Part shown: in pieces, positions 1-64,000 of the stretch | Layout: each line of letters opens with the position of its first letter | How positions within the stretch are numbered: the stretch's first letter is position 1 | Assembly (NCBI GenBank): GCA_019054805.1 | Contig: JAHQIY010000002.1 | Span: 9,486,001-9,550,000 of the forward strand | Length of the DNA stretch: 64,000 nucleotides | Direction: 5' to 3' | Source of the DNA: Brachionus manjavacas | Taxonomy: Eukaryota; Rotifera; Eurotatoria; Ploima; Brachionidae | Translations under genes and position numbers: made by a program | Notes under the pieces: generated by a model | What the model was told of the DNA's origin: nothing | Seen by the model: only the letters and a program-made list of their open reading frames with translations | Databases searched by the model: none

Positions 1-3000
1 CATTAAGCATATCATCTTTATTCTTGATCTCTTAAAAATAAAAATGATGATGAATAAAAAAATTCATTATTTCATCAAATAGTGATTGTACATTGATCTT
101 TTGACGTTGGTAATTTTTCAAAGATCGTTTTCCGGTCCTATTCGTTATTCGACGTCAAACTCTCATTTTCGTTTATTTTTTGCTCTAATTCTTTTAGAAG
201 CTGATCTTTTGCTGATAATTTTTCATTGTTTTCTTTCAGAACTAATTTTGTATTTTAAATATTCATAAAAATTTGAAATAAAGAATGAAGTAAAATAGTT
301 TTTCTTGTTGATTTAATTGTCGACAAATTTTGTTTTTCAGTTTTAATCGCAAATTTGAGATCAGAAATTTGCTTTTTTTGTCATCCAGTGCTAATTAATT
401 ATCCTTTAGCTTTTTATCTTTATCATTAAGCAAATCATCTTTATGCTCAATGTCTTAAAAGTAAAAATGATGATAAATAAAAAAATATTCAATATTTCAT
501 CAAATAGTGATTGTAACTTGATCTTTTGACGTTCGTAATTTTTCAAAGATCGCTTTCTGGTCCTATTCGAGATTCGACGTCATACTCTCATTTTCGTTTA
601 TTTTTTGCTCTAATTCTTTTAGAAGTTGATCTTTTGCTGCTAATTTTTCATTGTTTTCTTTCAGAACTACTTTTATATTTAAATATTTATGTAAAATTGA
701 CTTAAAGAATGAAGTAAAATAGTTTTACTTGTTGATTTAATTGTCGACAAATTATGTTTCTCAGTTTTATTCGAAAATTTGAGATCAGAATTTCGCTTTT
801 CTCTGTCGTCTAGTGCTAAATAATTATCCTTTAGCTTTTTATCTTTATCATTAAGCAAATCATCTTTATGCTTAATCTCTTAAAAATAAAAATGATGATA
901 AATAAAAAAATATTCAATATTTCATCAAAAAGTGAATATAACTTGATCTTTTGACGTTCGTTTTTTTTCAAAGATCGCTTTCTGTTCCTATTCAAGATTC
1001 GACGTCATACTCTCATTGTCGTTAATTTTTTGCTCTAATTCTTTTTGAAGCTGATTTTTTGCTTTTGATTTTTAATTGTTTTCTTTCAGAACTAATTTTG
1101 TATTTCAAATATATATGTAAAATTGAATTAAAGAAATAAGTAAAATAGTTTTACTTCTTGATTTAATTGTCGACAAATTTTTTTCTCAGTTTTATTCCCA
1201 AATTTAAGATCAGAAATTTGCTTTTTTTGTCGTCTAGTGCTAAATAATTATCCTTTAGCTTTTTATCTTTATCATTAAGCAAATCGTCTTTATGCTTAAT
1301 CTCTTAAAAATAAAAATGATGATAAATAAAAAAATATTCAATGTTTCATCAAAAAGTGAATATAACTTGATCTTTTGACGTTCGTTATTTTTCAAAGATC
1401 GCTTTCTGGGCCTATTCGAGATTCGACGTCATACTCTCATTTTCGTTTATTTTTTGCTCTAATTCTTTTAGAAGTTGATCTTTTGCTGCTAATTTTTCAT
1501 TGTTTTCTTTCAGAACTACTTTTATATTTAAATATTTATGTAAAATTGTTTTAAAGAATGAAGTAAAATAGTTTTACTTGTTGATTTAATTGTCGACAAA
1601 TTTTGTTTCTCAGTTTTATACGCAAATTTGAGATCAGAAATTTGCTTTTCTTTACAATCTAGTGCTAATTTATTGTCCTTTAGCTTTTTATCTTTATCAT
1701 TAAGCAAATCTTCTTTATGCTTAATCTCTTAAAAATAAAAATGATTATGAATAAAAAAATTCATTATTTCATCAAATAGTGATTGTACCTTGATCTTTTG
1801 ACGTTCGTATTTTTTCAAAGATCGCTTTCTGTTCCTATTCGAGATTCGACGTCATGCTCTCATTTTCGTTTATTTTTTGCTCTAATTCTTTTAGAAGCTG
1901 ATTTTTTGCTTTTGATTTTTAATTGTTTTCTTTCAGAACTAATTTTGTATTACAAATATATTTGTAAAAATGAATTAAAGAATGAAGTAAAATAGTTTTT
2001 CTTGTTGATTTAATTGTCGACAAATTTTGTTTCTCAGTTTTAATTGCAAATTTGAGATCAGAAAATGGCTTTTCATTATAATTTAGTGCTAATAAATTCT
2101 CCTTTAGCTTTTTATCTTTGTCCTTATGCAAGGCATCATAATGCATAATCTCTTAAAAATTTAAAATGATGATAAATAAATAGATATTCAATATTTCATC
2201 AAAAAGTGAATATAACTTGATCTTTTGACGTTCGTAATTTTTCAAAGATCGCTTTCTGGTTCTATTCGAGATTCGACGTCATACTCTCATTTTCGTTTAT
2301 TTTGCTCTAATTCTTTTAGAAGCTGAACTTTTGCTTCTAATTTTTCATTGTTTTCTTTCAGAACTACTTTTGTATTTAAATATTTATGTAAAATTAAATT
2401 AAAGAATGAACTAAAATAGTTTTACTTGTTGATTTAATTGTCGACAAATATTGTTTCTCAGTTTTATTCGCAAATTTGAGATCAGAAATTTGCTTTTTTT
2501 GTCATCCAGTGCTGAATCATATTCCTTTAGCTTTTTATCTTTATCATTAAGCAAATCGTCTTTATGCTTAATCTCTTAAAAGTAAAAATGATGATAAATA
2601 AAAAAATATTCAATGTTTCATCAAAAAGTGATTATACCTTGATCTTTTGACGTTCGTTTTTTTTCAAAGATCGCTTTCTAGTCCTATTCAAGATTCGACG
2701 TCAAACTCTCATTTTCGTTTATTTTTTGCTCTAATTCTTTTAGAAGCTGATATTCTACTGTTAATTTTTCATTGTTTTCTTTCAGAAGTACTTTTGTGTA
2801 TAAATATTTATGTAAAATTGAATTAAAGAATGAGGTAAAATAGTTTTACTTGTTGATTTAATTGTCGACAAATTATGTTTCTCAGTTTTATTCGCAAATT
2901 TGAGATCGGAATTTTGCTTTTCTCTGTCATCTAGTGCTAATTAATATTCCTTTAGCTTTTTATCTTTATCATTAAGCAAATCGTCTTTATGCTAAATCTC

Positions 3001-6000
3001 TTGAAAATAAAAATGATGATAAATAAAAAAATATTCAATACTTTCTCAAAAGGTCATTTGACCTTGATCTTTTGACGTTCTTAATTTTTCAAAGATCGCT
3101 TTCTGTTCCTATTCAAGATTCGACGTCATACTCTCATTGTCGTTTATTTTTTTCTCAAATTATTTTAGAAGCTGATCTTTTTCTTATAATTTTTCATTGT
3201 TTTCTTTCAGAACTACTTTTGTATTTAATTATTTATGTAAAATAGAATTAAAGAATGAAGAAAAATAGTTTTACTTGTTGATTTAATTGTCGACAAATTT
3301 TGTTTCTCTTTTTTATTCGCAAATTTGAGATCAGAATTTTGCTTTTCTCTGTCATCTAGTGCTAATTAATATTCCTTTAGCTTTTTATCTTTATCATTAG
3401 GCAAATCGTCTTTATGCTTAATCTCTTAAAAATTAAAATGATGATGAATAAAAAAATTCAATATTTTCTCAAATATTGATAGTACTTTGATCTTTTGACG
3501 TTTGTAATTTTTCAAAGATCGTTTTCCGGTCCTATTCGAGATTCGACATCATATTCTCATTTTCTTTTATTTTTTGCTATAATTCATTTCGAAGCTGATC
3601 TTCTGCTGTTAATTTTCCATTGTTTTCTTTCAGAACTAATTTTCTATTTCAAATATATATGTAAAATTGAATTAAAGAATGAAGGGTTAGGTGAATATAA
3701 AATAGTTTTACTTGTTGATTTAATTTTCGACTAATTTTGTTTCTCAGTTTTATTCCTAAATTTAAGATCAGAATTTCGCTTTTCTTTGTCATCTAGTGCT
3801 AATTAATTATCCTTTAGCTTTTTATCTTTATCATTAAGCAAATCATCTTTATGCTTAATCTCTTAAAAATAAAAATGATGATAAATAAAAAAATATTCAA
3901 TACTTTCTCAAAAGGTCATTTGACCTTGATCTTTTGACGTTCGTAATTTTTCAAAGATCGCTTTCTGGTCCTATTCGAGATTCGACGTCATACTCTCATT
4001 TTCGTTTATTTTTTGCTCTAATTCTTTTAGAAGTTGATCTTTTGCTGCTAATTTTTCATTGTTTTCTTTCAGAACTATTTTTGTATTTAAATATTTATGT
4101 AAAATTGACTTAAGGAATGAAGTTAAATAGTTTTTCTTGTTGATTTATTTGTCGACAAATTTTGTTTTTCAGTTTTAATCGCAAATTTGAGATCAGAAAT
4201 TTGTTTTTCTTTGTCATCTAGTGCTGATTCATATTCCCTAAGCTTTTTATCTTTATCATTAAGCAAATCGTCTTTATGCTTAATCTCTTAGAAATAAAAA
4301 TGATGATAAATAAAAAAATATTCGATATTTCATCAAAAAGTGAATATAACTTGATCTTTTGAAGTTCGTAATTTTTCAAAGATCGCTTTCTGGTCCTATT
4401 CGAGATTCGACGTCATACTCTCATTTTCGTTTATTTTTTGCTCTAATTCTTTTAGAAGTTGATCTTTTGCTGCTAATTTTTCATTGTTTTCTTTCAGAAC
4501 TATTTTTGTATTTAAATATTTATGTAAAATTGACTTAAGGAATGAAGTTAAATAGTTTTTCTTGTTGATTTATTTGTCGACAAATTTTGTTTCTCAGTTT
4601 TATTCGCAAATTTGAGATCAGAAATTTGCTTTTCTATGTCATCTAGTGCTGATTAATTTTCCTTTAGCTTTTTATCTTTGTCCTTAAGCAAATCATCTCT
4701 ATGCTTAATCTCTTAAAAATAAAAATGATGATAAATAAAAAAACATTCAATATTTCATCAAAAAGTGAAAATAACTTGATCTTTTGACGTTCGTAATTTT
4801 TCAAAGATCGCTTTCTGGTCCTATTCGAGATTCGACGTCATACTCTCATTTTCGTTTATTTTTTGCTCTAATTCATTTAGAAGCTGATCTTCTGCTGTTA
4901 ATTTTTCATTGTTTTCTTTCAGAACTAATTTTGTATTTCAAATATATATGTAAAATTGAATTAAAGAATGAAGTAAAATAGTTTTACTTGTTGATTTAAT
5001 TGTCGACAAATTTTTTTCTCAGTTTTATTCGCAAATTAGAGATAAGAAATTTGTATTTCTTTGTAATCAAGTTCTAATTCATATTCCTTTAGCTTTTTAT
5101 CTTTATTATTAAGCAAATCATCTTTATGCTATATCTCTTAAAAATAAAAATGATGATATATAAAAAAATATTCAATACTTTCTCAAAAGGTCATTTGACC
5201 TTGATCTTTTGAAGTTCGTAATTTTTCAAAGATCGCTTTCTGGTCCTATTCGAGATTCGACGTCATACTCTCATTTTCGTTTATTTTTTGCCCTAATTCT
5301 TTTAGAAGCTGATCTTTTGCTGCTAATTTTTCATTGTTTTCTTTCAGAACTACTTTTATATTTAAATATTTATGTAAAATTGACATAAAGAATGAACTAA
5401 AATAGTTTTACTTGTTGATTTAATTGTCAACAAATTTTGTTTTTAGTTTTATTCGCAAATTTGAGATCAGAAATTTGCTTTTTTTGTCATCCAGTGCTGA
5501 ATCATATTCCTTTAGCTTTTTATCTTTATCATTAAGCAAATCATCTTTATGCTTAATCTCTTAAAAGTAAAAATGTTGATAAATCTAAAAATATTCAATT
5601 TTTAATCTAATAGTGATTTTAACTTGATCTTTTGAAGTTCGTAATTTTTCAAAGATCGCTTTCTGGTCCTATTCGAGATTCGACGTCATACTCTCATTTT
5701 CGTTTATTTTTTGCTCTAATTCTTTTAGAAGTTGATCTTTTGCTGCTAATTTTTCATTGTTTTCTTTCAGAACTATTTTTGTATTTAAATATTTATGTAA
5801 AATTGACTTAAGGAATGAAGTTAAATAGTTTTTCTTGTTGATTTATTTGTCGACAAATTTTGTTTCTCAGTTTTATTCGCAAATTTGAGATCAGAAATTT
5901 GCTTTTCTCTGTCATCTAGTGCTAATTAATATTCCTTTAGCTTTTTATCTTTATGATTAAGCAAATCGTCTTTATGCTTAATCTCTTAAAAATAAAAATG

Positions 6001-21000: not shown

Positions 21001-24000
21001 GTTTTCTTTTAGAATTAATTTTGTTTTTTAATATTTATGTAAAATTGAATTAAAGAATGAAGTTAAATAGTTTTACTTGTTGATTTAATTGTCGACAAAT
21101 TTTGTTTCTTAGTTTTATTCGCAAATTTGAGATCAGAAATTTTTTTTCTTTGTCATCTAGTGCTAATTCATATTTCTTTAGCTTTTTATCTTTGTCATTA
21201 AGCAAATCATCTTTATGCTAAATCTCTTAAAAATAAAATGATGAATAAAAAATTTAAAATATTTCATCGAAAATTGATTATACCTTGATCTCTTGGCGTT
21301 CGTAATTTTTCAAAAATCGCTTTCTAGTCCTATTCAAGATTCGACGTCATTCTCTCATTTTCGTTTATTTTTTGCTCTAATTCTTTTAGAAGCTGATCTT
21401 TTGCTGCTAATTTTTCATTGTTTTCTTTCAGAACTATTTTTGTATTTAAATATTTGTGTAAAATTGACTTGAGGAATGAAGTTAAATAGTTTTTCTTGTT
21501 GATTTATTTGTCGACAGATTTTGTTTTTTCAGTTTTATTCCTGAATTTGAGATCAGAAATTTGCTTTTTTTGTAATCCAGTGCTGAATCATATTCCTTTA
21601 GCTTTTTATCTTTATAATTAAGCAAATCATCTTTATGCTATATCTCTTAAAAATAAAAATGATGATATATAAAAAAATATTCAATACTTTCTCAAAAGGT
21701 CATTTGACCTTGATCTTTTGAAGTTCGTAATTTTTCAAAGATCGCTTTCTTGTCCTATTCGAGATTCGATGTCATACTCTCATTTTCGTTTATTTTTTTC
21801 TATTATTCTTTTAGACGCTGATCTTAGCTTTTAATTTTTCATTGTTTTCTTTCAGAACTAATTTTTCATTTAAATATTTATAAAAAATTGAATTAAAGGA
21901 TAAAGTAAAATAGGTTTACTTGTTGATTTAATTGTCGACAAATTTTGTTTCTCAGTTTAATTCGCAAGTTTGAGATCAGAAATTTTTTTTTCTTTGTCAT
22001 CTAGTGCTTATTCATATTCCTTTAGCTTTTTATCTTTATCATTAAGCAAATCATCTTTATGCTAAATCTCTTAAAAATAAAAATGATGATAAATAAAAAA
22101 ATATTCAATATTTCATCAAAAAGTGAATATAACTTGATCTTTTGAAGTTCGTAATTTTTCAAAGATCGCTTTCTGGTCCTATTCGAGATTCGACGTAATA
22201 CTCTCATTTTCGTTTATTTTTTACTCTAATTCTTTTAGAAGCAGATCTTTTGCTGCTAATTTTTCATTGTTTTCTTTCAGAACTAATTTTGTATTTAAAT
22301 ATTTATACAAAATTTAATTAAAGAATGAAGTAAAATAGTTTTACTTGTTGATTTAATTGTCGACAAATTTTGTTTCTCAGTTTTATACGCAAATTTGAGA
22401 TCAGAAATTTGCTTTTCTTTACAATCTAGTGCTAATTTATTGTCCTTTAGCTTTTTATCTTTGTCCTTAAGCAGATCATCTTTATGCTTAATCTCTTAAA
22501 AATAAAAATGATGATAAATAAAAAAATATTCAGATTCATCAAAAAGTGAATATAACTTGATCTTTTGACGTTCGTAATTTTTCAGTGTTTTCTTTCAGAA
22601 CTAATTTTTTATTTTAATATTGAAATAACATTGAATTAAAGAATGAAGTTAAATAATTTTACTTGTTGATTTAATTGTCGACAAATTTTGTTTCTCAGTT
22701 TTATTTGCAAAATTGAGGTCAGAAATTTGCTTTTCTTTGTCATCCAGTGCAAATTCATTTTCCTTTAGCTTTTTTCTTTGTCCTTAAGCAAATCATCTTT
22801 ATGCTTAATCTCTTAAAAATAAAAATGATGATAAATAAAAAAATATTCAATATTTCATCGAAAATTTACTATACCTTGATCTTTTGACGTTCGTAATTTT
22901 TCAGTGTTTTCTTTCAGAACTAATTTTTTATTTAAAATTTATGTAAAATAGAATTAAAGAATAAAGAAAAAAAGTTTTACTTGATGATTTAATTGTCAAC
23001 AAATTTTGTTTTTTCAGTTTTATTCCTGAATTTGAGATCAGAAATTTGCTTTTTTTGTAATCCAGTGCTGAATCATATTCCTTTAGCTTTTTATCTTTAT
23101 AATTAAGCAAATCATCTTTATGCTTGATCTCTTAAAAGTAAAAATGATGATAAATCGAAAAATATTCAATTTTTCATCATAAAGTGAATTTAAATTGATC
23201 TTTTGACGTTCGTAATTTTTCAGAGATCGATTTCTGGTCCTATTAGAGATTGGACGTCATACTCTCATTTTCGTTTATTTTTCGCTGTAGTTCATTTCGA
23301 AGCTGATCTTCTGCTGTTAATTTTTCATTGTTTTCTTTCAGAACTAATTTTGTTTTTCAAATATTCATAAAAATTTGAATTAAAGAATGAAGTAAAATAG
23401 TTTTACTTGTTGATTTAATTGTCGACAAATTTTGTTTCTCAGTTTTATTCGCAAATTTGAGATCAGAAATTTTTTTTTCTTTGTCATCTAGTGCTAATTC
23501 ATATTCCTTTAGCTTTTTATCTTTGTCCTTAAGCAAATCATCTTTATGCTTAATCTCTTAAAAATAAAATGATAAATAAAAAAATATTCAATATTTCATC
23601 GAAAATTGATTATACCTTGATCTCTTGGCGTTCGTAATTTTTCAAAAATCGCTTTCTGGTCCGATTCGAGATTCGAAGTCATACTCTCATTTTCGTTTAT
23701 TTTTTGCTCTAATTCTTTTAGAAGTTGATCTTTTGCTGCTAATTTTTCATTGTTTTCTTTTAGAATTAATTTTGTTTTTTAATATTTATGTAAAATTAAC
23801 TTAAAGAATGAAGTAAAATAGTTTTACTTGTTGATTTAAATGTCGACAAATTTTGTTTCTCAGTTTTATACGCAAATTTGAGATCAGAAATTTGCTTTTC
23901 TTTGTCATCTAGTGCAAATTCATATTCCTTTAGCTTTTTATCTTTGTCCTTAAGCAAATCATCTTTATGCTAAATCTCTTAAAAATAAAATGATGAATAA

Positions 24001-45000: not shown

Positions 45001-48000
45001 CCTTAAGCTTTTTATCCTTGTCCTTAAGCAAATAATCTTTATGCTTAATCTCTTAAAAATAAAAAATGATAATAAATAAAAAAATATCCAATATTTCATC
45101 GAAAATTGATTATACTTTGATCTTTTGACGTTCGTAATTTTTCACAAATCGCTTTCTGGTCCGATTCGAGATTCGAAGTCATACTCTCATTTTCTTAAAC
45201 TTTTTGCTCTAATTCTTTTAGACGCTGATCTTTTGCTTTTAATTTTTCATTGTTTTCTTTCAGAACTAATTTTTTATTTAAATATATATATAAAATTGAA
45301 TTAAAGAATGAAGTTAAATAGTTTTACTTGTTGATTTAATTGTCGACAAATTTTGTTTCCTAGTTTAATTCGCAAATTTGAGATCAGAAATTCGCTTGTC
45401 TTTGTCATCTAGTGCTTATTCATATTCCTTTAGCTTTTTATCTTTGTCCTTAAGCTTTTTATCCTTGTCCTTAAGCAAATAATCTTTATGCTTAATCTCT
45501 TAAAAATAAAAATGATAATAAATAAAAAAATATCCAATATTTCATCGAAAATTGATTATACTTTGATCTTTTGACGTTCGTAATTTTTCACAAATCGCTT
45601 TCTGGTCCGATTCGAGATTCGAAGTCATACTCTCATTTTCTTAAACTTTTTGCTCTAATTCTTTTAGACGCTGATCTTTTGCTTTTAATTTTTCATTGTT
45701 TTCTTTCAGAACTAATTTTTTATTTAAATATATATATAAAATTGAATTAAAGAATGAAGTTAAATAGTTTTACTTGTTGATTTAATTGTCGACAAATTTT
45801 GTTTCCTAGTTTAATTCGCAAATTTGAGATCAGAAATTCGCTTGTCTTTGTCATCTAGTGCTTATTCATATTCCTTTAGCTTTTTATCTTTGTCCTTAAG
45901 CTTTTTATCCTTGTCCTTAAGCAAATAATCTTTATGCTTAATCTCTTAAAAATAAAAATGATAATAAATAAAAAAATATCCAATATTTCATCGAAAATTG
46001 ATTATACTTTGATCTTTTGACGTTCGTAATTTTTCACAAATCGCTTTCTGGTCCGATTCGAGATTCGAAGTCATACTCTCATTTTCTTAAACTTTTGCTC
46101 TAATTCTTTTAGACGCTGATCTTTTGCTTTTAATTTTTCATTGTTTTCTTTCAGAACTAATTTTTTATTTAAATATATATATAAAATTGAATTAAAGAAT
46201 GAAGTTAAATAGTTTTACTTGTTGATTTAATTGTCGACAAATTTTGTTTCCTAGTTTAATTCGCAAATTTGAGATCAGAAATTCGCTTGTCTTTGTCATC
46301 TAGTGCTTATTCATATTCCTTTAGCTTTTTATCTTTGTCCTTAAGCTTTTTTATCCTTGTCCTTAAGCAAATAATCTTTTTGCTTAATCTATTAAAAATA
46401 AAAATGATAATAAATAAAAAAATATTCAATATTTCATCGAAAATTGATTATACCTAGATCTTTTGACGTTCGAAATTCTTCATTGTTTTCTTTCAGAACT
46501 AATTTTTTATTTTAATATTGAAATAACATTGAATTAAAGAATGAAGTTAAATAGTTTTACTTGTTGATTTAATTGTCGACAAATTTTGTTTCCTAGTTTA
46601 ATTCGCAAATTTGAGATCAGAAATTTGCTTTTCTTTTGTCATCTAGTGCTAAATCATATTCCTTTAGCTTTTTATCTTTGTCCTTAAGCTTTTTATCCTT
46701 GTCCTTAAGCAAATAATCTTTATGCTTAATCTCTTAAAAATAAAAATGATAATAAATAAAAAAATATCCAATATTTCATCGAAAATTGATTATACTTTGA
46801 TCTTTTGACGTTCGTAATTTTTCACAAATCGCTTTCTGGTCCGATTCGAGATTCGAAGTCATACTCTCATTTTCTTAAACTTTTTGCTCTAATTCTTTTA
46901 GACGCTGATCTTTTGCTTTTAATTTTTCATTGTTTTCTTTCAGAACTAATTTTTTATTTAAATATATATATAAAATTGAATTAAAGAATGAAGTTAAATA
47001 GTTTTACTTGTTGATTTAATTGTCGACAAATTTTGTTTCCTAGTTTAATTCGCAAATTTGAGATCAGAAATTCGCTTGTCTTTGTCATCTAGTGCTTATT
47101 CATATTCCTTTAGCTTTTTATCTTTGTCCTTAAGCTTTTTATCCTTGTCCTTAAGCAAATAATCTTTTTGCTTAATCTATTAAAAATAAAAATGATAATA
47201 AATAAAAAAATATTCAATATTTCATCGAAAATTGATTATACCTAGATCTTTTGACGTTCGAAATTCTTCATTGTTTTCTTTCAGAACTAATTTTTTATTT
47301 TAATATTGAAATAACATTGAATTAAAGAATGAAGTTAAATAGTTTTACTTGTTGATTTAATTGTCGACAAATTTTGTTTCCTAGTTTAATTCGCAAATTT
47401 GAGATCAGAAATTTGCTTTTCTTTGTCATCTAGTGCTAAATCATATTCCTTTAGCTTTTTATCTTTGTCCTTAAGCTTTTTATCCTTGTCCTTAAGCAAA
47501 TAATCTTTATGCTTAATCTCTTAAAAATAAAAATGATAATAAATAAAAAAATATTCAATATTTCATCGAAAATTGATTATACCTAGATCTTTTGACGTTC
47601 GAAATTCTTCATTGTTTTCTTTCAGAACTAATTTTTTATTTTAATATTGAAATAACATTGAATTAAAGAATGAAGTTAAATAGTTTTACTTGTTGATTTA
47701 ATTGTCGACAAATTTTGTTTCCTAGTTTAATTCGCAAATTTGAGATCAGAAATTTGCTTTTCTTTGTCATCTAGTGCTAAATCATATTCCTTTAGCTTTT
47801 TATCTTTGTCCTTAAGCTTTTTATCCTTGTCCTTAAGCAAATAATCTTTATGCTTAATCTCTTAAAAATAAAAATGATAATAAATAAAAAAATATCCAAT
47901 ATTTCATCGAAAATTGATTATACTTTGATCTTTTGACGTTCGAAATTCTTCATTGTTTTCTTTCAGAACTAATTTTTTATTTAAATATTGAAATAACATT

Positions 48001-51000
48001 GAATTAAAGAATGAAGTTAAATAGTTTTACTTGTTGATTTAATTGTCGACAAATTTTGTTTCCTAGTTTAATTCGCAAATTTGAGATCAGAAATTTGCTT
48101 TTCTTTGTCATCTAGTGCTAAATCATATTCCTTTAGCTTTTTATCTTTGTCCTTAAGCTTTTTATCCTTGTCCTTAAGCAAATAATCTTTATGCTTAATC
48201 TCTTAAAAATAAAAATGATAATAAATAAAAAAATATTCAATATTTCATCGAAAATTGATTATACCTAGATCTTTTGACGTTCGAAATTCTTCATTGTTTT
48301 CTTTCAGAACTAATTTTTTATTTTAATATTGAAATAACATTGAATTAAAGAATGAAGTTAAATAGTTTTACTTGTTGATTTAATTGTCGACAAATTTTGT
48401 TTCCTAGTTTAATTCGCAAATTTGAGATCAGAAATTTGCTTTTCTTTGTCATCTAGTGCTAAATCATATTCCTTTAGCTTTTTATCTTTGTCCTTAAGCT
48501 TTTTATCCTTGTCCTTAAGCAAATAATCTTTATGCTTAATCTCTTAAAAATAAAAATGATAATAAATAAAAAAATATCCAATATTTCATCGAAAATTGAT
48601 TATACTTTGATCTTTTGACGTTCGTAATTTTTCACAAATCGCTTTCTGGTCCGATTCGAGATTCGAAGTCATACTCTCATTTTCTTAAACTTTTTGCTCT
48701 AATTCTTTTAGACGCTGATCTTTTGCTTTTAATTTTTCATTGTTTTCTTTCAGAACTAATTTTTTATTTAAATATATATATAAAATTGAATTAAAGAATG
48801 AAGTTAAATAGTTTTACTTGTTGATTTAATTGTCGACAAATTTTGTTTCCTAGTTTAATTCTCAAATTTGAAATCAGAAATTTGCTTTTCTTTGTCATCT
48901 AGTGCTAAATCATATTCCTTTAGCTTTTTATCTTTGTCCTTAAGCTTTTTATCCTTGTCCTTAAGCAAATAATCTTTATGCTTAATCTCTTAAAAATAAA
49001 AATGATAATAAATAAAAAAATATTCAATATTTCATCGAAAATTGATTATACCTAGATCTTTTGACGTTCGAAATTCTTCATTGTTTTCTTTCAGAACTAA
49101 TTTTTTATTTTAATATTGAAATAACATTGAATTAAAGAATGAAGTTAAATAGTTTTACTTGTTGATTTAATTGTCGACAAATTTTGTTTCCTAGTTTAAT
49201 TCGCAAATTTGAGATCAGAAATTTGCTTTTCTTTGTCATCTAGTGCTAATTCATATTCCTTTAGCTTTTTATCTTTGTCCTTAAGCAAATCATCTTTATG
49301 CTTGATCTCTTAAAAATAAAAATAATAATAAATAAAAAAAATTCAATATTTCATCGAAAATTGATTATACTTTGATCTTTTGACGTTCGTAATTTTTCAA
49401 AAATCACTTTCTGGTCCGATTCGAGATTCGAAGTCATACTCCGATTTTCTTCTACTTTTTGCTCTAATTCTTTTAGACGCTGATCTTTTGCTTTAATTTT
49501 TCATTGTTTTCTTTCAGAACTAATTTTTTATTTAAATATATATATAAAATTGAATTAAAGAATGAAGTTAAATAGTTTTACTTGTTGATTTAATTGTCGA
49601 CAAATTTTGTTTCCTAGTTTAATTCTCAAATTTGAAATCAGAAATTTGCTTTTCTTTGTCATCTAGTGCTAAATCATATTCCTTTAGCTTTTTATCTTTG
49701 TCCTTAAGCAAATAATCTTTATGCTTAATCTCTTAAAAATAAAAATGATAATAAATAAAAAATATCCAATATTTCATCAGAAAATTGATTATACTTTGAT
49801 CTTTTGACGTTCGTAATTTTTCACAAATCGCTTTCTGGTCCGATTCGAGATTCGAAGTCATACTCTCATTTTCTTAAACTTTTTGCTCTAATTCTTTTAG
49901 ACGCTGATCTTTTGCTTTTAATTTTTCATTGTTTTCTTTCAGAACTAATTTTTTATTTAAATATATATATAAAATTGAATTAAAGAATGAAGTTAAATAG
50001 TTTTACTTGTTGATTTAATTGTCGACAAATTTTGTTTCCTAGTTTAATTCTCAAATTTGAAATCAGAAATTTGCTTTTCTTTGTCATCTAGTGCTAAATC
50101 ATATTCCTTTAGCTTTTTATCTTTGTCCTTAAGCTTTTTATCCTTGTCCTTAAGCAAATAATCTTTATGCTTAATCTCTTAAAAATAAAAATGATAATAA
50201 ATAAAAAAATATTCAATATTTCATCGAAAATTGATTATACCTAGATCTTTTGACGTTCGAAATTCTTCATTGTTTTCTTTCAGAACTAATTTTTTATTTT
50301 AATATTGAAATAACATTGAATTAAAGAATGAAGTTAAATAGTTTTACTTGTTGATTTAATTGTCGACAAATTTTGTTTCCTAGTTTAATTCGCAAATTTG
50401 AGATCAGAAATTTGCTTTTCTTTGTCATCTAGTGCTAAATCATATTCCTTTAGCTTTTTATCTTTGTCCTTAAGCTTTTTATCCTTGTCCTTAAGCAAAT
50501 AATCTTTATGCTTAATCTCTTAAAAATAAAAATGATAATAAATAAAAAAATATTCAATATTTCATCGAAAATTGATTATACCTAGATCTTTTGACGTTCG
50601 AAATTCTTCATTGTTTTCTTTCAGAACTAATTTTTTATTTTAATATTGAAATAACATTGAATTAAAGAATGAAGTTAAATAGTTTTACTTGTTGATTTAA
50701 TTGTCGACAAATTTTGTTTCCTAGTTTAATTCGCAAATTTGAGATCAGAAATTTGCTTTTCTTTGTCATCTAGTGCTAAATCATATTCCTTTGTCCTTAA
50801 GCTTTTTATCTTTGTCCTTAAGCAAATAATCTTTTATGCTTAATCTCTTAAAAATAAAAATGATAATAAATAAAAAAATATCCAATATTTCATCGAAAAT
50901 TGATTATACTTTGATCTTTTGACGTTCGAAATTCTTCATTGTTTTCTTTCAGAACTAATTTTTATTTTAATATTGAAATAATATTGGGAATTAAAGAATG

Positions 51001-60000: not shown

Positions 60001-63000
60001 CGTTCGAAATTTTTCAGTGTTTTCTTTCAGAAACAATTTTTTATTTTATTATTGAAATAACATTGAATTAAAAAAATGAAGTTAAATAGTTTTTCTTGTT
60101 GATTTAATTGTCGCCAAATTTTGTTTCTCAGTTTTATTCGCAAATTTGAGATCAGAAATTTGCTTGTCTTTGTCATCTAGTGCTAATTCATATTCCTTTA
60201 GCTTTTTATCTTTGTCCTTAACTAAATCATCTATATGCTTAATCTCTTAAAAATAAAAATGATAATAAATAAAAAAATATTCAATATTTCATCGAAAATT
60301 GATTATACTTTGATCTTTTGACGTTCGTAATTTTTCAAAAATCGCTTTCTGGTCCGATTCAAGATTCGAAGTCATACTCTCATTTTCTTATACTTTTTGC
60401 TCTAATTCTTTTAGACGCTGATCTTTTGCTTTTAATTTTTCATTGTTTTCTTTCAGAACCAATTTTTTATTTTAATATTGAAATAACATTGAATTAAAGA
60501 ATGAAGTAAAATAGTTTGACTTGTTGATTTAATTGTCGACAAATTTTGTTTCCTAGTTTAATTCGCAAATTTGAGATCAGAAATTTGCTTTTCTTTGTCA
60601 TCTAGTGCAAATTCATATTCCTTTAGCTTTTTATCTTTGTCCTTAAGCTTTTTATCCTTGTCCTTAAGCAAATAATCTTTATGCTTAATCTCTTAAAAAT
60701 AAAAATGATATTAAATAAAAAAATATTCAATATTTCATTGAAAATTGATTATACCTAGATCTTTTGACGTTCGTAATTTTTCACAAATCGCTTTCTGGTC
60801 CGATACGAAATTCGAAGTCATACTCTCTTTTTTCTACTTTTTTCTCTAATTCTTTTAGACGCTGATCTTTTGCTTTTAATTTTTGATTGTTTTCTTTCAG
60901 AACTAATTTTTTATTTTAATATTGAAATAACATTGAATTAAAGAATGAAGTTAAATAGTTTTACTTGTTGATTTAATTGTCGACAAATTTTGTTTCCTAG
61001 TTTAATTCGCAAATTTGGGATCAGAAATTCGCTTGTCTTTGTCATCTTGTGCTTATTCATATTCCTTTAGCTTTTCATCTTTTGTCCTTAAGCAAATCAT
61101 CTTTATGCTTAATCTCTTAAAAATAAAAATGATAATAAATAAAAAAATATTCAATATTTCATTGAAAATTGATTATACCTAGATCTTTTGACGTTCGTAA
61201 TTTTTCACAAATCGCTTTCTGGTCCGATACGAAATTCGAAGTCATACTCTCATTTTCTTATACTTTTTGCTCTAATTCTTTTAGACGCTGATCTTTTGCT
61301 TTTAATTTTTCATTGTTTTCTTTCAGAACTAATTTTTTATTTTAATATTGAAATAACATTGAATTAAAGAATGAAGTTAAATAGTTTTACTTGCTGATTT
61401 AATTGTCGACAAATTTTGTTTCCTAGTTTAATTCGCTAATTTGAGATCAGAAATTTTCTTGTCTTTGTCATCTAGTGCTTATTCATATTCCTTTAGCTTT
61501 TTATCTTTGTCCTTAAGCTTTTTATCTTTGTCCTTAAGCAAATAATCTTTTTGCTTAATCTATTAAAAATAAAAATGATAATAAATAAAAAAATATTCAA
61601 TATTTCATCGAAAATTGATTATACCTAGATCTTTTGACGTTCGAAATTTTTCAGTGTTTTCTTTCAGAAACAATTTTTTATTTTAATATTGAAATAACAT
61701 TGAATTAAAAGATGAAGTTAAATAGTTTTACTTGCTGATTTAATTGTCGACAAATTTTGTTTCCTAGTTTAATTCGCAAATTTTAGATCAGAAATTCGCT
61801 TGTCTTTGTCATCTAGTGCTTATTCATATTCCTTTAATTTTTCAGTGTTTTCTTTCAGAAACAATTTTTTATTTTAATATTGAAATAACATTGAATTAAA
61901 AGATGAAGTTAAATAGTTTTACTTGCTGATTTAATTGTCGACAAATTTTGTTTCCTAGTTTAATTCGCAAATTTTAGATCAGAAATTCGCTTGTCTTTGT
62001 CATCTAGTGCTTATTCATATTCCTTTAGCTTTTTATCTTTGTCCTTGAGCAAATCATCTTTATGCTTAATCTCTTAAAAATAAAAATGATAATAAATAAA
62101 AAAATATTCAATATTTCATTGAAAATTGATTATACTTTGATCTTTTGACGTTCGTAATTTTTCAAAAATCGCTTTCTGGTCCGATTCAAGATTCGAAGTC
62201 ATACTCTCATTTTCTTCTACATTTTTCTCTAATTCTTTTAGACGCTGATCTTTTGCTTTTAATTTTTGATTGTTTTCTTTCAGAACTAATTTTTTATTTT
62301 AATATTGAAATAACATTGAATTAAAGAATGAAGTTTAATAGTTTTACTTGTTGATTTAATTGTCGACAAATTTTGTTTCCTAGTTTAATTCGCAAATTTG
62401 AGATCAGAAATTTGCTTTTCTTTGTCATCTAGTGCAAATTCATATTCCTTTAGCTTTTTATCTTTGTCCTTAAGCTTTTTATCCTTGTCCTTAAGCAAAT
62501 AATCTTTATGCTTAATCTCTTAAAAATAAAAATGATATTAAATAAAAAAATATTCAATATTTCATCGAAAATTGACTATACCTAGATCTTTTGACGTTCG
62601 TAATTTTTCACAAATCGCTTTCTGGTCCGATTCAAGATTCGAAGTCATACTCTCATTTTCTTCTACATTTTTCTCTAATTCTTTTAGACGCTGATCTTTT
62701 GCTTTTAATTTTTGATTGTTTTCTTTCAGAACTAATTTTTTATTTTAATATTGAAATAACATTGAATTAAAGAATGAAGTTTAATAGTTTTACTTGTTGA
62801 TTTAATTGTCGACAAATTTTGTTTCCTAGTTTAATTCGCAAATTTGAGATCAGAAATTCGCTTGTCTTTGTCATCTTGTGCTTATTCATATTCCTTTAGC
62901 TTTTTATCTTTGTCCTTAAGCAAATCATCTTTATGCTTAATCTCTTAAAAATAAAAATGATAATAAATAAAAAAATATTCAATATTTCATCGAAAATTGA

Positions 63001-64000
63001 TTATACCTAGATCTTTTGACGTTCGAAATTTTTCAGTGTTTTCTTTCAGAAACAATTTTTTATTTTAATATTGAAATAACATTGAATTAAAAAATGAAGT
63101 TAGATAGTTTTTCTTGTTGATTTAATTGTCGACAAATTTTGTTTCTCAGTTTTATTCGCAAATTTGAGATCAGAAATTTGCTTGTCTTTGTCATCTTGTG
63201 CTTATTCATATTCCTTTAGCTTTTTATCTTTGTCCTTAAGCAAATCATCTTTATGCTTAATCTCTTAAAAATAAAAATGATAATAAATAAAAAAATATTC
63301 AATATTTCATCGAAAATTGATTATACCTAGATCTTTTGACGTTCGAAATTTTTCAGTGCTTTCTTTCAGAAACAATTTTTTATTTTAATATTGAAATAAC
63401 ATTGAATTAAAAAATGAAGTTAAATAGTTTTTCTTGTTGATTTAATTGTCGACAAATTTTGTTTCTCAGTTTTATTCGCAAATTTGAGATCAGAAATTTG
63501 CTTGTCTTTGTCATCTAGTGCTTATTCATATTCCTTTAGCTTTTTATCTTTGTCCTTAAGCAAATCATCTTTATACTTAATCTCTTAAAAATAAAAATGA
63601 TAATAAATAAAAAAATATTCAATATTTCATTGAAAATTGATTATACCTAGATCTTTTGACGTTCGTAATTTTTCACAAATCGCTTTCTGGTCCGATTCAA
63701 GATTCGAAGTCATACTCTCATTTTCTTATACTTTTTGCTCTAATTCTTTTAGACGCTGATCTTTTGCTTTTAATTTTTCATTGTTTTCTTTCAGAACTAA
63801 TTTTTTATTTTAATATTGAAATAACATTGAATTAAAGAATGAAGTTAAATAGTTTGACTTGTTGATTTAATTGTCGACAAATTTTGTTTCCTAGTTTAAT
63901 TCGCAAATTTGAGATCAGAAATTCGCTTGTCTTTGTCATCTTGTGCTTATTCATATTCCTTTAGCTTTTTATCTTTGTCCTTAAGCTTTTTATCCTTGTC
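1..64000 (-). CDS. Giant multi-intron coiled-coil gene, interior part (ciliate code), open at both ends
   Basis: I see a two-exon, two-intron unit repeated about 157 times on the minus strand. After removal of GT-AG introns of about 62 and 63 nt and with UAA/UAG read as Gln, intact units join into one frame of about 100 residues per unit. The product is rich in Lys, Glu, Asp, Gln and Leu, with Leu/Ile spaced by seven (exon positions 2, 9, 16, 44, and 23 and 30 in exon A), which indicates a coiled coil. I see no membrane segment, signal peptide or catalytic motif. From family knowledge, long coiled coils of this type are usually cytoskeletal, basal-body or scaffold proteins, but nothing here identifies the role. 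Start codon, terminal UGA, promoter and polyadenylation region lie outside. Several units have frameshifts or lost splice sites, so this could be several genes, or partly a pseudogene. Confidence 0.62.
3912..3927. repeat. Short inverted repeat at an intron 2 donor
   Basis: AAGGTCA, TT, TGACCTT: perfect 7-bp arms with a 2-base spacer, spanning the exon B/intron 2 junction. It occurs only in a scattered subset of left-domain units (near 3.06, 3.91, 5.19, 7.73, 8.15, 11.97 and 21.69 kb). Confidence 0.6.
3925..4074 (-). CDS. Left-domain exon B carrying the common in-frame TAG
   Basis: This is a 150-nt exon with TAG at codon 35 (3971-3973), between Glu and Asp-Gln-Lys. The same codon is AAG (15.8 kb) or TCG (most of the middle and right domains) elsewhere. 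The donor is G|GTCAAATGAC, part of a short inverted repeat. The following intron 1 donor is GA instead of GT, so this copy may be partly defective in splicing. Confidence 0.6.
12320..12360 (-). pseudogene. Unit with deleted intron 2 acceptor
   Basis: About 22 nt are missing between the Asp codons near the start of exon A and the intron, removing the TTTAAG acceptor and the Ile-Lys-His-Lys start of exon A. The unit is about 403 bp instead of 425. Exon A of this copy probably cannot be spliced in normally. Confidence 0.6.
15775..15924 (-). CDS. Left-domain exon B, fully open even in the standard code
   Basis: This 150-nt copy has AAG at codon 35 where neighbours have TAG, so it is open in any code. 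It encodes LKENNEKLAAKDQLLKELEQ, then Lys-Ile-Asn-Glu-Asn-Glu, Met-Ser-Asn-Leu-Glu-Lys-Asp and a C-terminal Lys-Leu-Arg-Thr-Ser-Lys-Asp-Gln. The donor is G|GTACAATCAC. It is useful as a template because the coiled-coil reading needs no codon reassignment here. Confidence 0.7.
15987..16136 (-). CDS. Left-domain exon A with two in-frame TAA codons
   Basis: This copy is exactly 150 nt with both splice sites present (TTTAAG acceptor, GTAAAA donor). TAA occurs at codon 20, where other copies have GAA or AAA, and at codon 14, where most copies have AAA. Under the standard code the exon would be dead. With UAR read as Gln it is open and keeps the Lys/Glu/Gln character. Confidence 0.62.
18455..18664 (-). 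CDS. Exon A plus an in-frame 60-nt intron 1, open through into exon B
   Basis: Here intron 1 is 60 nt (two bases shorter than usual), so the reading is continuous from exon A (LKDKDKKLKENELALDD...) through the intron into the start of exon B (VVLKENN). The intron part is Ser/Ile/Leu/Phe/His/Tyr-rich and unlike the charged exons. The GT and AG are still in place. The simplest reading is a normal intron that happens to be 3n and open. Confidence 0.55.
   Translation of the reverse strand: MLKDKDKKLKENELALDDREKQISDLKFANKTEKPNLSKIKSTSKTILLFFNSILHKYLNTKVVLKENN
22557..22600 (-). CDS. Leftmost mini-exon B
   Basis: The junction reads ACT GAA AAA TTA CGA ACG, which is exactly what a deletion between the two GAAAAATTA words of a full exon B would leave. 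The donor is the CAA|GTTATA form (phase 0), so this exon is 44 nt; it fits only with an acceptor at AAGAG| (also phase 0), which is present in the same intron. It may represent the ancestral mini-exon type. Confidence 0.58.
22875..22919 (-). CDS. Second left-side mini-exon B (45 nt)
   Basis: It has the same junction as the copy at 22.56 kb, about 320 bp away, but with the usual phase 1 donor (G|GTATAG). Together they form an isolated pair 14 kb from the next mini-exons. Either the deletion arose more than once or a block was transposed within the array. Confidence 0.6.
36261..36281 (-). repeat. First copy of the 21-nt heptad duplication
   Basis: Reading from the left, this is the first exon A with two LKDKDKK heptads. 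The two copies differ by one base (AAG versus AAA for a Lys codon), which marks the duplicated heptad in later copies too. It is absent from 1 to 36.2 kb and present in most units to the right. Confidence 0.8.
37583..37721 (-). pseudogene. Broken exon B with several deletions
   Basis: The exon is 139 nt instead of 150. There is a 2-nt loss at the donor end, a 7-nt loss in the Gln-Lys-Ala-Ile region and a 2-nt loss in the Glu-Gln-Lys run. The shifted frame meets TGA. It lies at the boundary between the middle and right domains, next to an exon A with unusual variants, so it may be a remnant of an older unit. Confidence 0.6.
48606..48755 (-). CDS. Representative full exon B (150 nt, 50 codons)
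   Basis: The exon opens with a split Ile codon (A from exon A, TT here), continues LKENNEKLKAKDQRLKELEQ, then Lys-Val-UAA-Glu-Asn-Glu, a Met-Thr-Ser-Asn-Leu-Glu-Ser block, and ends with Lys-Leu-Arg-Thr-Ser-Lys-Asp-Gln plus one base. Codon 24 (48685-48687) is TAA here, but CAA in many copies between 30 and 35 kb, so it reads as Gln. There is no in-frame TGA. Leu at positions 2, 9, 16 and 44 marks the heptads. The TTAG acceptor lies immediately upstream and the GTATAA donor immediately downstream. Confidence 0.72.
48756..48817 (-). other. Representative intron 1 (62 nt, GT-AG, phase 1)
   Basis: On the minus strand it starts GTAAAACTATTTAAC and ends in AAAAAATTAG. Length is 62 nt in most copies and ranges from 60 to 63, with drift concentrated in the AT-only middle. 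If it were not spliced, the 62-nt length shifts the frame and the reading meets TGA a few bases into exon B (TAG TTC TGA), the only stop in this code. Where the copy is 60 nt (near 18.5 kb) the reading stays open through the intron. Retention cannot be excluded for that copy. Confidence 0.7.
48818..48988 (-). CDS. Representative exon A with duplicated heptad (171 nt)
   Basis: It begins with the last two bases of a split Lys/Glu codon, then Ile-Lys-His-Lys-Asp-Tyr-Leu, two copies of LKDKDKK, then LKEYDLALDDKEKQISDLKF and ends near Ser-Thr-Ile-Lys-Ser-Thr plus one base. Codon 38 (48855-48857) is TAA; the same codon is AAA in copies of the left and middle domains. There are no in-frame TGAs, although TGA is common out of frame. 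The invariant GTCGAC lies at 48832-48837. The length of 171 nt is the basic 150 plus one heptad of 21 nt, so frame and coiled-coil register are kept. Confidence 0.72.
48830..48839. other. Near-invariant palindrome TTGTCGACAA (representative)
   Basis: This 10-bp perfect palindrome falls in exon A over Asn-Leu-Ser-Thr-Ile codons. It is kept in nearly all units, even diverged left-domain ones where flanking bases vary. Rare exceptions are GTCGCC (9.24, 20.67 and 60.11 kb) and GTCAAC (5.43 and 23.0 kb). It contains a SalI recognition site once per unit. Confidence 0.75.
48989..49051 (-). other. Representative intron 2 (63 nt, GT-AG, phase 1)
   Basis: On the minus strand it starts GTATAATCAATTTTCGATGA and ends in ATTTTTAAG. 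It is a multiple of three in length, so read-through would keep the frame, but TGA is present in frame (CGA TGA) shortly after the donor. That is the pattern expected for a real intron in an organism where only UGA stops. Left-domain copies have a different start (GTATAATCAC) but also carry in-frame TGA. Confidence 0.7.
49052..49096 (-). CDS. Representative mini-exon B (45 nt)
   Basis: It is a shortened exon B of 15 codons: Ile-Leu-Lys-Glu-Asn-Asn-Glu-Glu-Phe-Arg-Thr-Ser-Lys-Asp-Leu plus a split base. Compared with the full exon it lacks exactly 105 nt (35 codons, five heptads) between two copies of the word GAAAAATTA. Both splice sites remain and the phase is unchanged, so the unit still joins in frame. 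About thirty such mini-exons occur from 36.8 kb to the right edge. Confidence 0.68.
49159..49308 (-). CDS. Representative exon A without heptad duplication (150 nt)
   Basis: It has the same layout as the 171-nt exon but with a single LKDKDKK. Starting two bases into a split codon, it runs from the TTTAAG acceptor to the GTAAAA donor and contains 50 codons including split ends. It sits inside the heptad-duplicated domain, giving a 320-bp unit together with the preceding mini-exon. This shows that duplicated and unduplicated copies recombine freely. Confidence 0.68.
51239..51378 (-). pseudogene. Exon B with a 10-nt deletion
   Basis: Ten bases are missing in the Leu-Lys-Ala-Lys part, giving 140 nt and a frameshift. 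The rest of the unit is nearly identical to its neighbours, so the event is recent or an assembly error. The exon A just to the left of it is also shortened in its heptad region (near 51.14 kb). Confidence 0.55.
58800..58845 (-). CDS. Mini-exon B of a different origin
   Basis: Here the exon joins Lys-Ala-Lys-Asp of the first part directly to Leu of the exon end. The breakpoints lie in the word GATCTTTTG (plus strand), present at both ends of a full exon B. The deletion is 108 nt (36 codons), in frame. The acceptor is altered from TTAG to TTGG, so this exon may be skipped or use another AG. The right boundary is approximate because of that loss. Confidence 0.5.
59988..60245 (-). CDS. Exon A, former intron 1 and mini-exon B as one open block (258 nt)
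   Basis: In this unit intron 1 (60033-60095) has lost both splice sites: the donor is GA and the acceptor GT. Its length is 63 nt instead of 62, so exon A, the former intron and the mini-exon form 86 codons without a TGA. The former intron reads as a Phe/Leu/Asn-rich insert. This is either an intron turned into coding sequence or a dead unit that happens to be open. A sister copy near 63.0-63.1 kb has the same losses but 62 nt and therefore a frameshift. Confidence 0.45.
61732..61860 (-). CDS. Fused exon B/exon A (129 nt) lacking intron 2
   Basis: Exon B codons 1-9 (Leu-Lys-Glu-Asn-Thr-Glu-Lys-Leu) run straight into exon A codon 17 onward (Lys-Glu-Tyr-Glu-UAA-Ala-Leu-Asp-Asp). Intron 2 and the rest of both exons are missing. 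The length is 43 codons, so frame is kept, and joining position 9 to position 17 substitutes Leu9 for the homologous Leu16, which keeps the heptad register. The AG acceptor in front is lost (AATTGT instead of AATTAG), so this exon may be skipped. Confidence 0.55.

Follow-up and report, generated by a model that had tools for sequence, protein, structure and literature searches.

DNA transposons that carry a Ulp1-type protease gene exist, such as Ginger, and they form one point of reference for the locus described here. A second point of reference is satellite DNA that grew out of mobile elements. In Drosophila virilis, the internal repeats of the foldback transposon Tetris are the building blocks of longer TIR-220 satellite arrays, according to the available part of the source (PMC4079207). 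A more general model, as laid out in the accessible portion of another article, holds that tandem repeats multiply inside a transposon, after which the termini decay and a classical satellite remains (PMC12628747). Closer to the organism of this study, the satellites rotiSat1 and rotiSat2 of the rotifer Brachionus asplanchnoidis have 154- and 143-bp monomers, with a GC peak at 37%, in the sections of the source at hand (PMC8447722). Within an open-access library and the terms used, no description of the satellite analyzed in the present work was found by title or by the start of the abstract.

The subject of this study is a 64,000-nt stretch of Brachionus manjavacas DNA (C2:9486001-9550000, hereafter the window), which we examined together with the 114-Mb genome, in 61 contigs, to which it belongs. 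A preliminary description had taken the window to hold a giant gene on the minus strand, with introns removed from each unit and with UAA and UAG decoded as Gln, that would encode a coiled-coil protein of perhaps ~15,000 residues. Our analysis leads to a different reading: the array is, with high probability, satellite DNA that arose by tandem amplification of an exon pair from a transposon-borne coiled-coil gene.

Unit anatomy of the array

A head-to-tail array of one monomer fills the whole window without a break on the minus strand, with unit spacings that fall into classes near 320, 341, 425 and 446 bp and a GC content of 0.235-0.257 in 2-kb steps (~24.5% GC for the satellite). The array extends beyond the window and occupies C2:9429206-9580418 as a whole, where matched repeat totals 111,891 bp in C2:9.43-9.58 Mb, plus interruptions. 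An nhmmer search with the consensus gave 331 matches in C2:9.40-9.60 Mb, 21 in C30, 48 in C56 and 6 at C2:9.14 Mb, with two matches per unit being possible in these counts. The unit consensus itself was built column by column, using 331 pieces of units on C2, C30 and C56—a procedure by which variable codons, such as codon 22, differ from the commonest codon—and consists of exon A (150 nt), intron 1 (63 nt), exon B (150 nt) and intron 2 (62 nt), adding up to 425 nt. Walking the window intron by intron, we encountered 313 introns (157 of one kind and 156 of the other, corresponding to ~156 units) and 311 regular exons out of 312 exon pieces.

Much of the anatomy put forward in the preliminary description is borne out by these data. 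Standard translation of the window yields short fragments only, with no complete ORF of at least 90 aa under table 11; two introns of ~63 and 62 nt per unit are present in the consensus; both proposed splice junctions (Table 1) agree letter by letter; and the unit sizes follow from exon and intron arithmetic, with 150/150-nt exons, 63/62-nt introns and the +21 and -105 variants lying inside exons. Moreover, the minus-strand introns join a single open, coiled-coil-like frame of 100 codons in the consensus, which contains no standard-code stop once spliced, while the remaining two frames are stop-rich. The heptad periodicity of the consensus is weak, the best of three periods being reached by 4.4% of shuffles.

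In the window, 44 of the 311 exons measure 171 nt and 31 measure 45 nt, representing the gain of 21 nt and the loss of 105 nt, respectively. That such sizes come in multiples of three had been regarded as evidence of coding, but a simpler cause is available, because a 10-bp direct repeat (TGAAAAATTA) occurs twice in consensus exon A, exactly 105 nt apart and bounding the 105-nt loss, and because 21 nt would correspond to one coiled-coil heptad of codons. Recombination between the short repeats can have produced the loss, and the gain is presumably an additional copy of a heptad-coding stretch. Both variants are common to many units, a distribution that would fit their inheritance during amplification. 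Consistent intron positions, confinement to a single strand and exon lengths divisible by three in 258 of 311 cases all favor a working giant gene; however, an open spliced consensus, regular introns and multiple-of-3 sizes can also come from a parent gene, and are no proof of a gene.

Table 1. Coordinates of array features, interrupting elements, cassettes and attached arrays. Plain numbers are window positions; prefixed numbers are contig positions.
Feature	Position	Strand	Details	Basis
Satellite array part	1..64000	-	425/446/320/341-bp units	unit search, intron walk
Exon A, example unit	48606..48755	-	150 nt; reads LKENNEKLKAK..., phase runs on into exon B	sequence and consensus
In-frame TAA, exon A	48685..48687	-	codon 22	sequence
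Intron 1, example unit	48543..48605	-	63 nt; GTATAATC...TTTTTAAG	sequence and consensus
Exon B, long form, example unit	48372..48542	-	171 nt = 150 + 21; putative extra heptad	sequence and length classes
In-frame TAA, exon B	48409..48411	-	codon 86	sequence
Intron 2, example unit	48310..48371	-	62 nt; GTAAAAC...ATTAG	sequence and consensus
Exon A, short form	49052..49096	-	45 nt; 105 nt missing	sequence and length classes
Intron 1	48989..49051	-	junction 48988/49052	sequence
Intron 2	48756..48817	-	junction 48755/48818	sequence
20.9-kb insertion	C2:9449663-9470571		449-bp terminal inverted repeats, 97.3% alike; outside window	
Two ~8.3-kb elements	C2:9553901-9562213, 9569527-9577895		repeats near both ends; outside window	
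Cassette	C34, 85.5 to 80.3 kb			ORF order
Cassette	C29, 643.8 to 635.5 kb			ORF order
Cassette	C23, 562.5 to 555.2 kb			ORF order
Cassette	C24, 615.7 to 611.0 kb			ORF order
Cassette	C2, 9.2236 to 9.2289 Mb, and at 9.14 Mb			ORF order
Weaker or partial cassette sets	C12, C19 (two), C37, C56			ORF order
Short array	C19:48762-56645		429-bp period; after 5' exons 47838-48591	
Short array	C19:211-2946		429-bp period; beside 5' exons 3117-3870 on other strand	
Short array	C29:635464-639051		429-bp period; behind 5' exons; at least 9 exon A matches	
Longer array behind shortened gene	C56:6-20873		N-terminal exon 21003-21314	

Genetic code and the codons at which stops arose

In the genome we read six tubulin loci, two of them beta-like and four alpha-like. 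All have full-length frames in which Gln is encoded by CAA or CAG, and their stops—TAA in five loci and TAG in one—directly follow canonical C-termini such as EEY. The host reads the standard code in these six loci. Across the genome, 23 of 27 tubulin-family matches are free of internal stops, and the four with in-frame stops may reflect introns or pseudogenes. We also observed a cluster of five tubulin-family matches at C4:7059274-7102911, of which the three that were read are all alpha-like, as well as a COX1-family match (667-aa open frame) and a tubulin/FtsZ-family match on C21 (120555-121901 and 293057-293542), which is perhaps a bacterial contig in the assembly.

Within the array, in-frame TAA and TAG arose mostly at sites where the consensus has Lys, Ser, Glu or Leu. 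At the seven commonest stop sites, the consensus residues are Lys, Ser, Glu, Leu, Lys, Glu and Glu, and the first Gln site ranks eighth. Codon 86, the commonest of all, is AAA in 194 and TAA in 78 of 274 copies in C2, and AAA in 98 and TAA in 59 of the 157 copies in the window. At codon 22, the C2 copies (n = 230) comprise AAC (87), GAA (76), TAA (38), AAA (14) and CAA (13), so that AAA, the column-wise consensus codon, is itself rare there; Gln is a possible forerunner of TAA at this one site. A ciliate-type code with UAA and UAG as Gln is rejected because the six tubulin genes read are standard and because of the codons at which the array stops arose. Recoding is also superfluous for the consensus, which is already open without it.

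Two observations speak for a recoded giant gene, namely the CAA found in some copies at codon 22 and the count of only 4 TGA versus 221 TAA/TAG codons among the window's in-frame exons. That TGA is nearly absent is nonetheless explained by codon composition—2.7 distinct changes to TGA are expected from the intron spectrum, and 1 was seen—and scarcity of TGA in AT-rich, Lys/Glu-rich sequence is no proof of a changed code.

Decay of the coding frame

The walk through the window revealed extensive damage to the frame and to its splice sites. GT-AG is retained in 239 of the 313 introns and absent in 74, and the length of 53 of the 311 exons is not divisible by three. Under the standard code 90 of 311 exons are intact, and the longest intact, correctly spliced run comprises 4 exons and 179 aa. 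Reading TAA and TAG as Gln after intron removal, as had been proposed, brings the number of intact exons to 255 of 311 and the longest run to 22 exons and 995 aa, far short of the ~15,000 residues claimed; with splice-site letters ignored, the longest runs are 250 aa (standard code) and 1,325 aa (TAA/TAG as Gln). An unbroken 15,000-residue frame across the window is excluded. When scoring in the window was restricted to exons covered within 2 nt of both ends, leaving out short exons with split matches, a frameshift was present in 27 of 119 copies of exon A and 20 of 118 copies of exon B, and a standard stop occurred in 81 of the remaining 92 and 55 of the remaining 98, respectively; the donor GT was missing after 32 of the 119 copies of exon A and 14 of the 118 of exon B.

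The pattern of substitutions points in the same direction. With expectations taken from the intron spectrum, 300 distinct nonsynonymous substitutions were seen against 342.8 expected, 93 synonymous ones against 89.6, and 41 changes to TAA/TAG against 39.1; the nonsynonymous/synonymous split is not clearly different from neutral (chi-square ~2, by hand arithmetic). Small exon indels in C2 comprise 123 that are not multiples of three versus 11 that are, in a count that leaves out the 105-nt losses and many of the 21-nt gains, which the search splits. For codon positions 1, 2 and 3, divergence across C2 copies, calculated with gaps and N skipped, amounts to 0.0614, 0.0725 and 0.0596 in exon A and to 0.0579, 0.0363 and 0.0597 in exon B; the introns show 0.0592 and 0.0715. 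Stops in the array accumulate as fast as neutrality predicts, no codon position is consistently favored, and the original coding frame is without selection there, the reservation being the lower divergence at exon B position 2. This position alone is low in C2, in the first array (C2:9.43-9.45 Mb) and in C30, and it is high in C56.

A point against plain neutral decay is that exons are slightly more alike across units than introns, with between-unit identities of 0.905/0.912 versus 0.885/0.879 in 199 near full-length C2 units; another is the slight shortfall of nonsynonymous substitutions noted above (300 versus 342.8). In addition, decay in C2 is not uniform, because the array at 9.43-9.45 Mb is mostly intact in the standard code (30 of 44 copies of exon A and 32 of 48 of exon B). 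This largely intact stretch, together with the standard-code openness of the consensus and the low divergence at position 2 of exon B, would also suit a giant gene that was functional until recently, encoding a long coiled-coil protein under the standard code, and has since become a pseudogene; the near-neutral substitutions over the depth of the array argue against such a history.

Array growth and interrupting elements

Identity between units depends on their distance, with values of 0.930 below 1 kb, 0.883 at 30-60 kb and 0.903 above 60 kb (199 near full-length C2 units). The array is interrupted by three transposon-like elements, all located outside the window (Table 1). The 20.9-kb insertion contains ORFs of 470 and 304 aa, the former related to Brachionus proteins, and a GC-rich stretch near its end. 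It also harbors distant relatives of the transposase-like and Ulp1/RING-like ORFs described below (with identities of 34% and 44%, at 9.455 and 9.457 Mb) and has no match to the coil exons. An ORF of an array-interrupting transposon matched one protein of B. calyciflorus (47%, covering 63% of the query) and one of B. plicatilis (95%, covering 21%). Together with the B. plicatilis matches of the coiled-coil gene reported below, these place the host in or close to the B. plicatilis complex. One of the two ~8.3-kb elements holds a sub-threshold KDZ transposase match. Both occupy the same satellite unit position (124/137) and are 98.9% alike, for which reason we reject their independent insertion; a single insertion, followed by duplication of a ~15.7-kb block, probably explains the pair.

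A transposon-like cassette carries the probable parent gene

In a copy at C2:9.14 Mb, the exon pair is present once, within a 7.18-kb tandem unit. More coiled-coil exons lie upstream of it (two stops among them), and exon B continues downstream into a different sequence, MESSYIWQ.... These upstream coil exons have 59 matches genome-wide, and the acidic N-terminus of the coiled-coil gene has 98; at E 0.001, neither had any match in C2:9.40-9.67 Mb, with 75 of 75 and 85 of 85 candidates scored, respectively. The array in C2 is therefore headless as far as these 5' exons are concerned, a result that counts against a giant gene there, whether working or recently dead.

The same components recur in a dispersed cassette, which has the order transposase-like ORF, Ulp1/RING-like ORF, acidic N-terminus, coil exons and exon A/B, all in the same orientation. 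We found this order, complete or partial, on C34, C29, C23, C24, C12, C19 (two), C2 (9.14 and 9.22 Mb), C37 and C56. From the ORF order and the dispersal of the cassette we infer that it is mobile, and the coiled-coil gene seems to be part of a transposon.

The transposase-like match at C34 sits in an 808-aa open frame. In an alignment of 18 relatives of this ORF, D393, C440 and H443 are invariant, and the D in WFFDATGS and the E in NNxVExWF are the majority residues—a pattern that, we presume, resembles that of DDE transposases with an RNase H core. No Pfam match at cut-off was obtained for the transposase-like or the Ulp1/RING-like ORF, the Ulp1/RING matches being sub-threshold, and the coiled-coil repeat displayed sub-threshold Pfam resemblances only. 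Two separate observations concern transposon ORFs. On C46 (4960-150133), many short degenerate matches to the transposase-like ORF, with open frames of ~50-70 aa and mostly on one strand, may form a further repeat array derived from part of a transposase. Furthermore, the public B. plicatilis protein annotated as mitogen-activated kinase kinase kinase kinase 3 looks like a chimera in which a fragment of a kinase is fused to a transposon ORF of the kind found here.

Against 5.8 billion proteins, the 100-aa consensus gave no match at E 0.001 (9 candidates). A longer query with flanking exons (8000 candidates scored) retrieved two B. plicatilis hypothetical proteins, BpHYR1_035912 and BpHYR1_041415, with identities of 71% over 62% and 54% over 76%. 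The former is informative for a 410-base piece of C29, which contains a single exon A flanked by portions of exon B and has open exons and GT-AG introns: the spliced reading of this piece and BpHYR1_035912 are identical at 89 of 94 residues, with no gaps. The splice positions are independently supported because BpHYR1_035912, a gene model and not RNA, spans both junctions. As a side observation, the BpHYR1_041415 model appears to continue past exon A into the sequence of intron 1, and its end, which reads GIITFRSNIEYGNLV, looks mispredicted.

Three pN/pS values, all from very small comparisons, suggest a mixed result for selection on the exon pair. They amount to 0.38 between the C29 piece and the consensus (10 synonymous and 17 nonsynonymous differences), 0.35 between the C29 piece and the C2:9.14-Mb copy (7 and 12) and 1.63 between the C2:9.14-Mb copy and the consensus (2 and 15).

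Arrays and copies elsewhere in the genome

Exon copies were searched for across the genome, with the best 150 of 675, 666 and 673 candidates scored. Among the matches listed, exon A/B was found once at each of C34, C24 and C2:9.22 Mb. At other loci, arrays are attached to 5' exons of the gene (Table 1). The two arrays on C19 contain at least 26 exon A matches, all with identical score, behind intact-looking 5' exons. TGA is present in 3 of 9 copies of exon A on C29 among the matches listed, and exon B carries stops on C37 and C56, again among the matches listed. In the C56 array a stop was found in 31 of 32 in-frame copies of exon B; therefore, an attached array can be dead too. Additionally, a 23-base core of exon B had 390 matches genome-wide with up to 3 mismatches, and its reversed control had 0.

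Origin of the array and alternative readings

These findings can be arranged into a possible sequence of events. An exon-intron-exon-intron module of 100 coiled-coil codons would have sat in a gene behind the DDE-like transposase and Ulp1/RING-like ORFs, and the exon pair would have been amplified in tandem within the cassette. A whole module keeps the reading frame, so that early growth would have been harmless to the frame. The array would then have shed the remainder of the gene, and unequal exchange together with local homogenisation would have enlarged it to >100 kb; the size variants would stem from recombination at short direct repeats, and further transposons would have inserted. At present, stops, frameshifts and broken splice sites are accumulating under neutral decay. 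We infer both the direction of these events and unequal exchange as the mechanism of growth, and likewise that the array makes no protein.

An unlikely, though not negligible, extension of this reading is that the exon pair acts as a frame-neutral expansion module. The youngest cassettes, C19 above all, would keep an open frame and splice sites, and a functional coiled-coil protein would vary by 100-residue modules. The odds are lowered because the listed matches on C29, C37 and C56 carry stops. If the idea were true, satellite arrays of the type seen in the window would be the dead, runaway outcome of a system by which a coding sequence varies in length.

Among the competing explanations, the recently dead giant gene introduced above fares best, and we still consider it improbable, given the lack of 5' exon matches adjoining the C2 array and the near-neutral substitutions. 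Less probable again is a satellite with a chromosomal role, e.g., a centromeric one, in which the repeat would be used as DNA and not as coding sequence. A long one-strand array situated toward one contig end (at 9.43-9.58 of 9.90 Mb), local homogenisation and a further array with which a contig opens (C19:211 onward) would agree with such a role; however, short or single matches lie on many contigs, so this is not one site per chromosome, and no result obtained here favors binding by chromosomal proteins. Finally, a working giant gene with UAA and UAG as Gln is scarcely credible, being ruled out by the direct walk through the window even under that recoding, with neutral decay, the missing 5' exons and the transposon interruptions all standing against it. 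Amplification of a transposon-borne exon pair is thus the reading we retain.

Comparison with known systems

With Ginger, the cassette shares the pairing of a transposase-type ORF with a Ulp1-like protease ORF, but its transposase-like ORF is without a Pfam family and is not placed with Ginger, MULE or KDZ. The likeness to Tetris lies in repeats inside a DNA transposon that seeded satellite arrays; the ~220-bp repeats of Tetris are situated in terminal inverted repeats, whereas here the monomer consists of two coding exons plus introns (PMC4079207, for the part of that source available). The general model has in common with our reading the growth of repeats inside an element, followed by loss of the terminal parts, but it discusses MITEs and Helitrons, and the terms exon and coding region are absent from the accessible portion of its text (PMC12628747). 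Long satellite arrays in the same genus connect the locus to rotiSat1 and rotiSat2, which differ from it in monomer size and composition (154/143 bp and 37% GC versus 425 bp and ~24.5% GC here; PMC8447722, sections at hand).

Transposon-born satellites are, in sum, already known, and what differs in the present case is the monomer, a coding exon-intron-exon-intron module. Within a single genome, the loci appear to form a graded series that leads from an exon pair in a dispersed cassette through short, regular, gene-joined arrays to a headless array of >100 kb, which makes it possible to test directly how a coding module with introns gives birth to a satellite.
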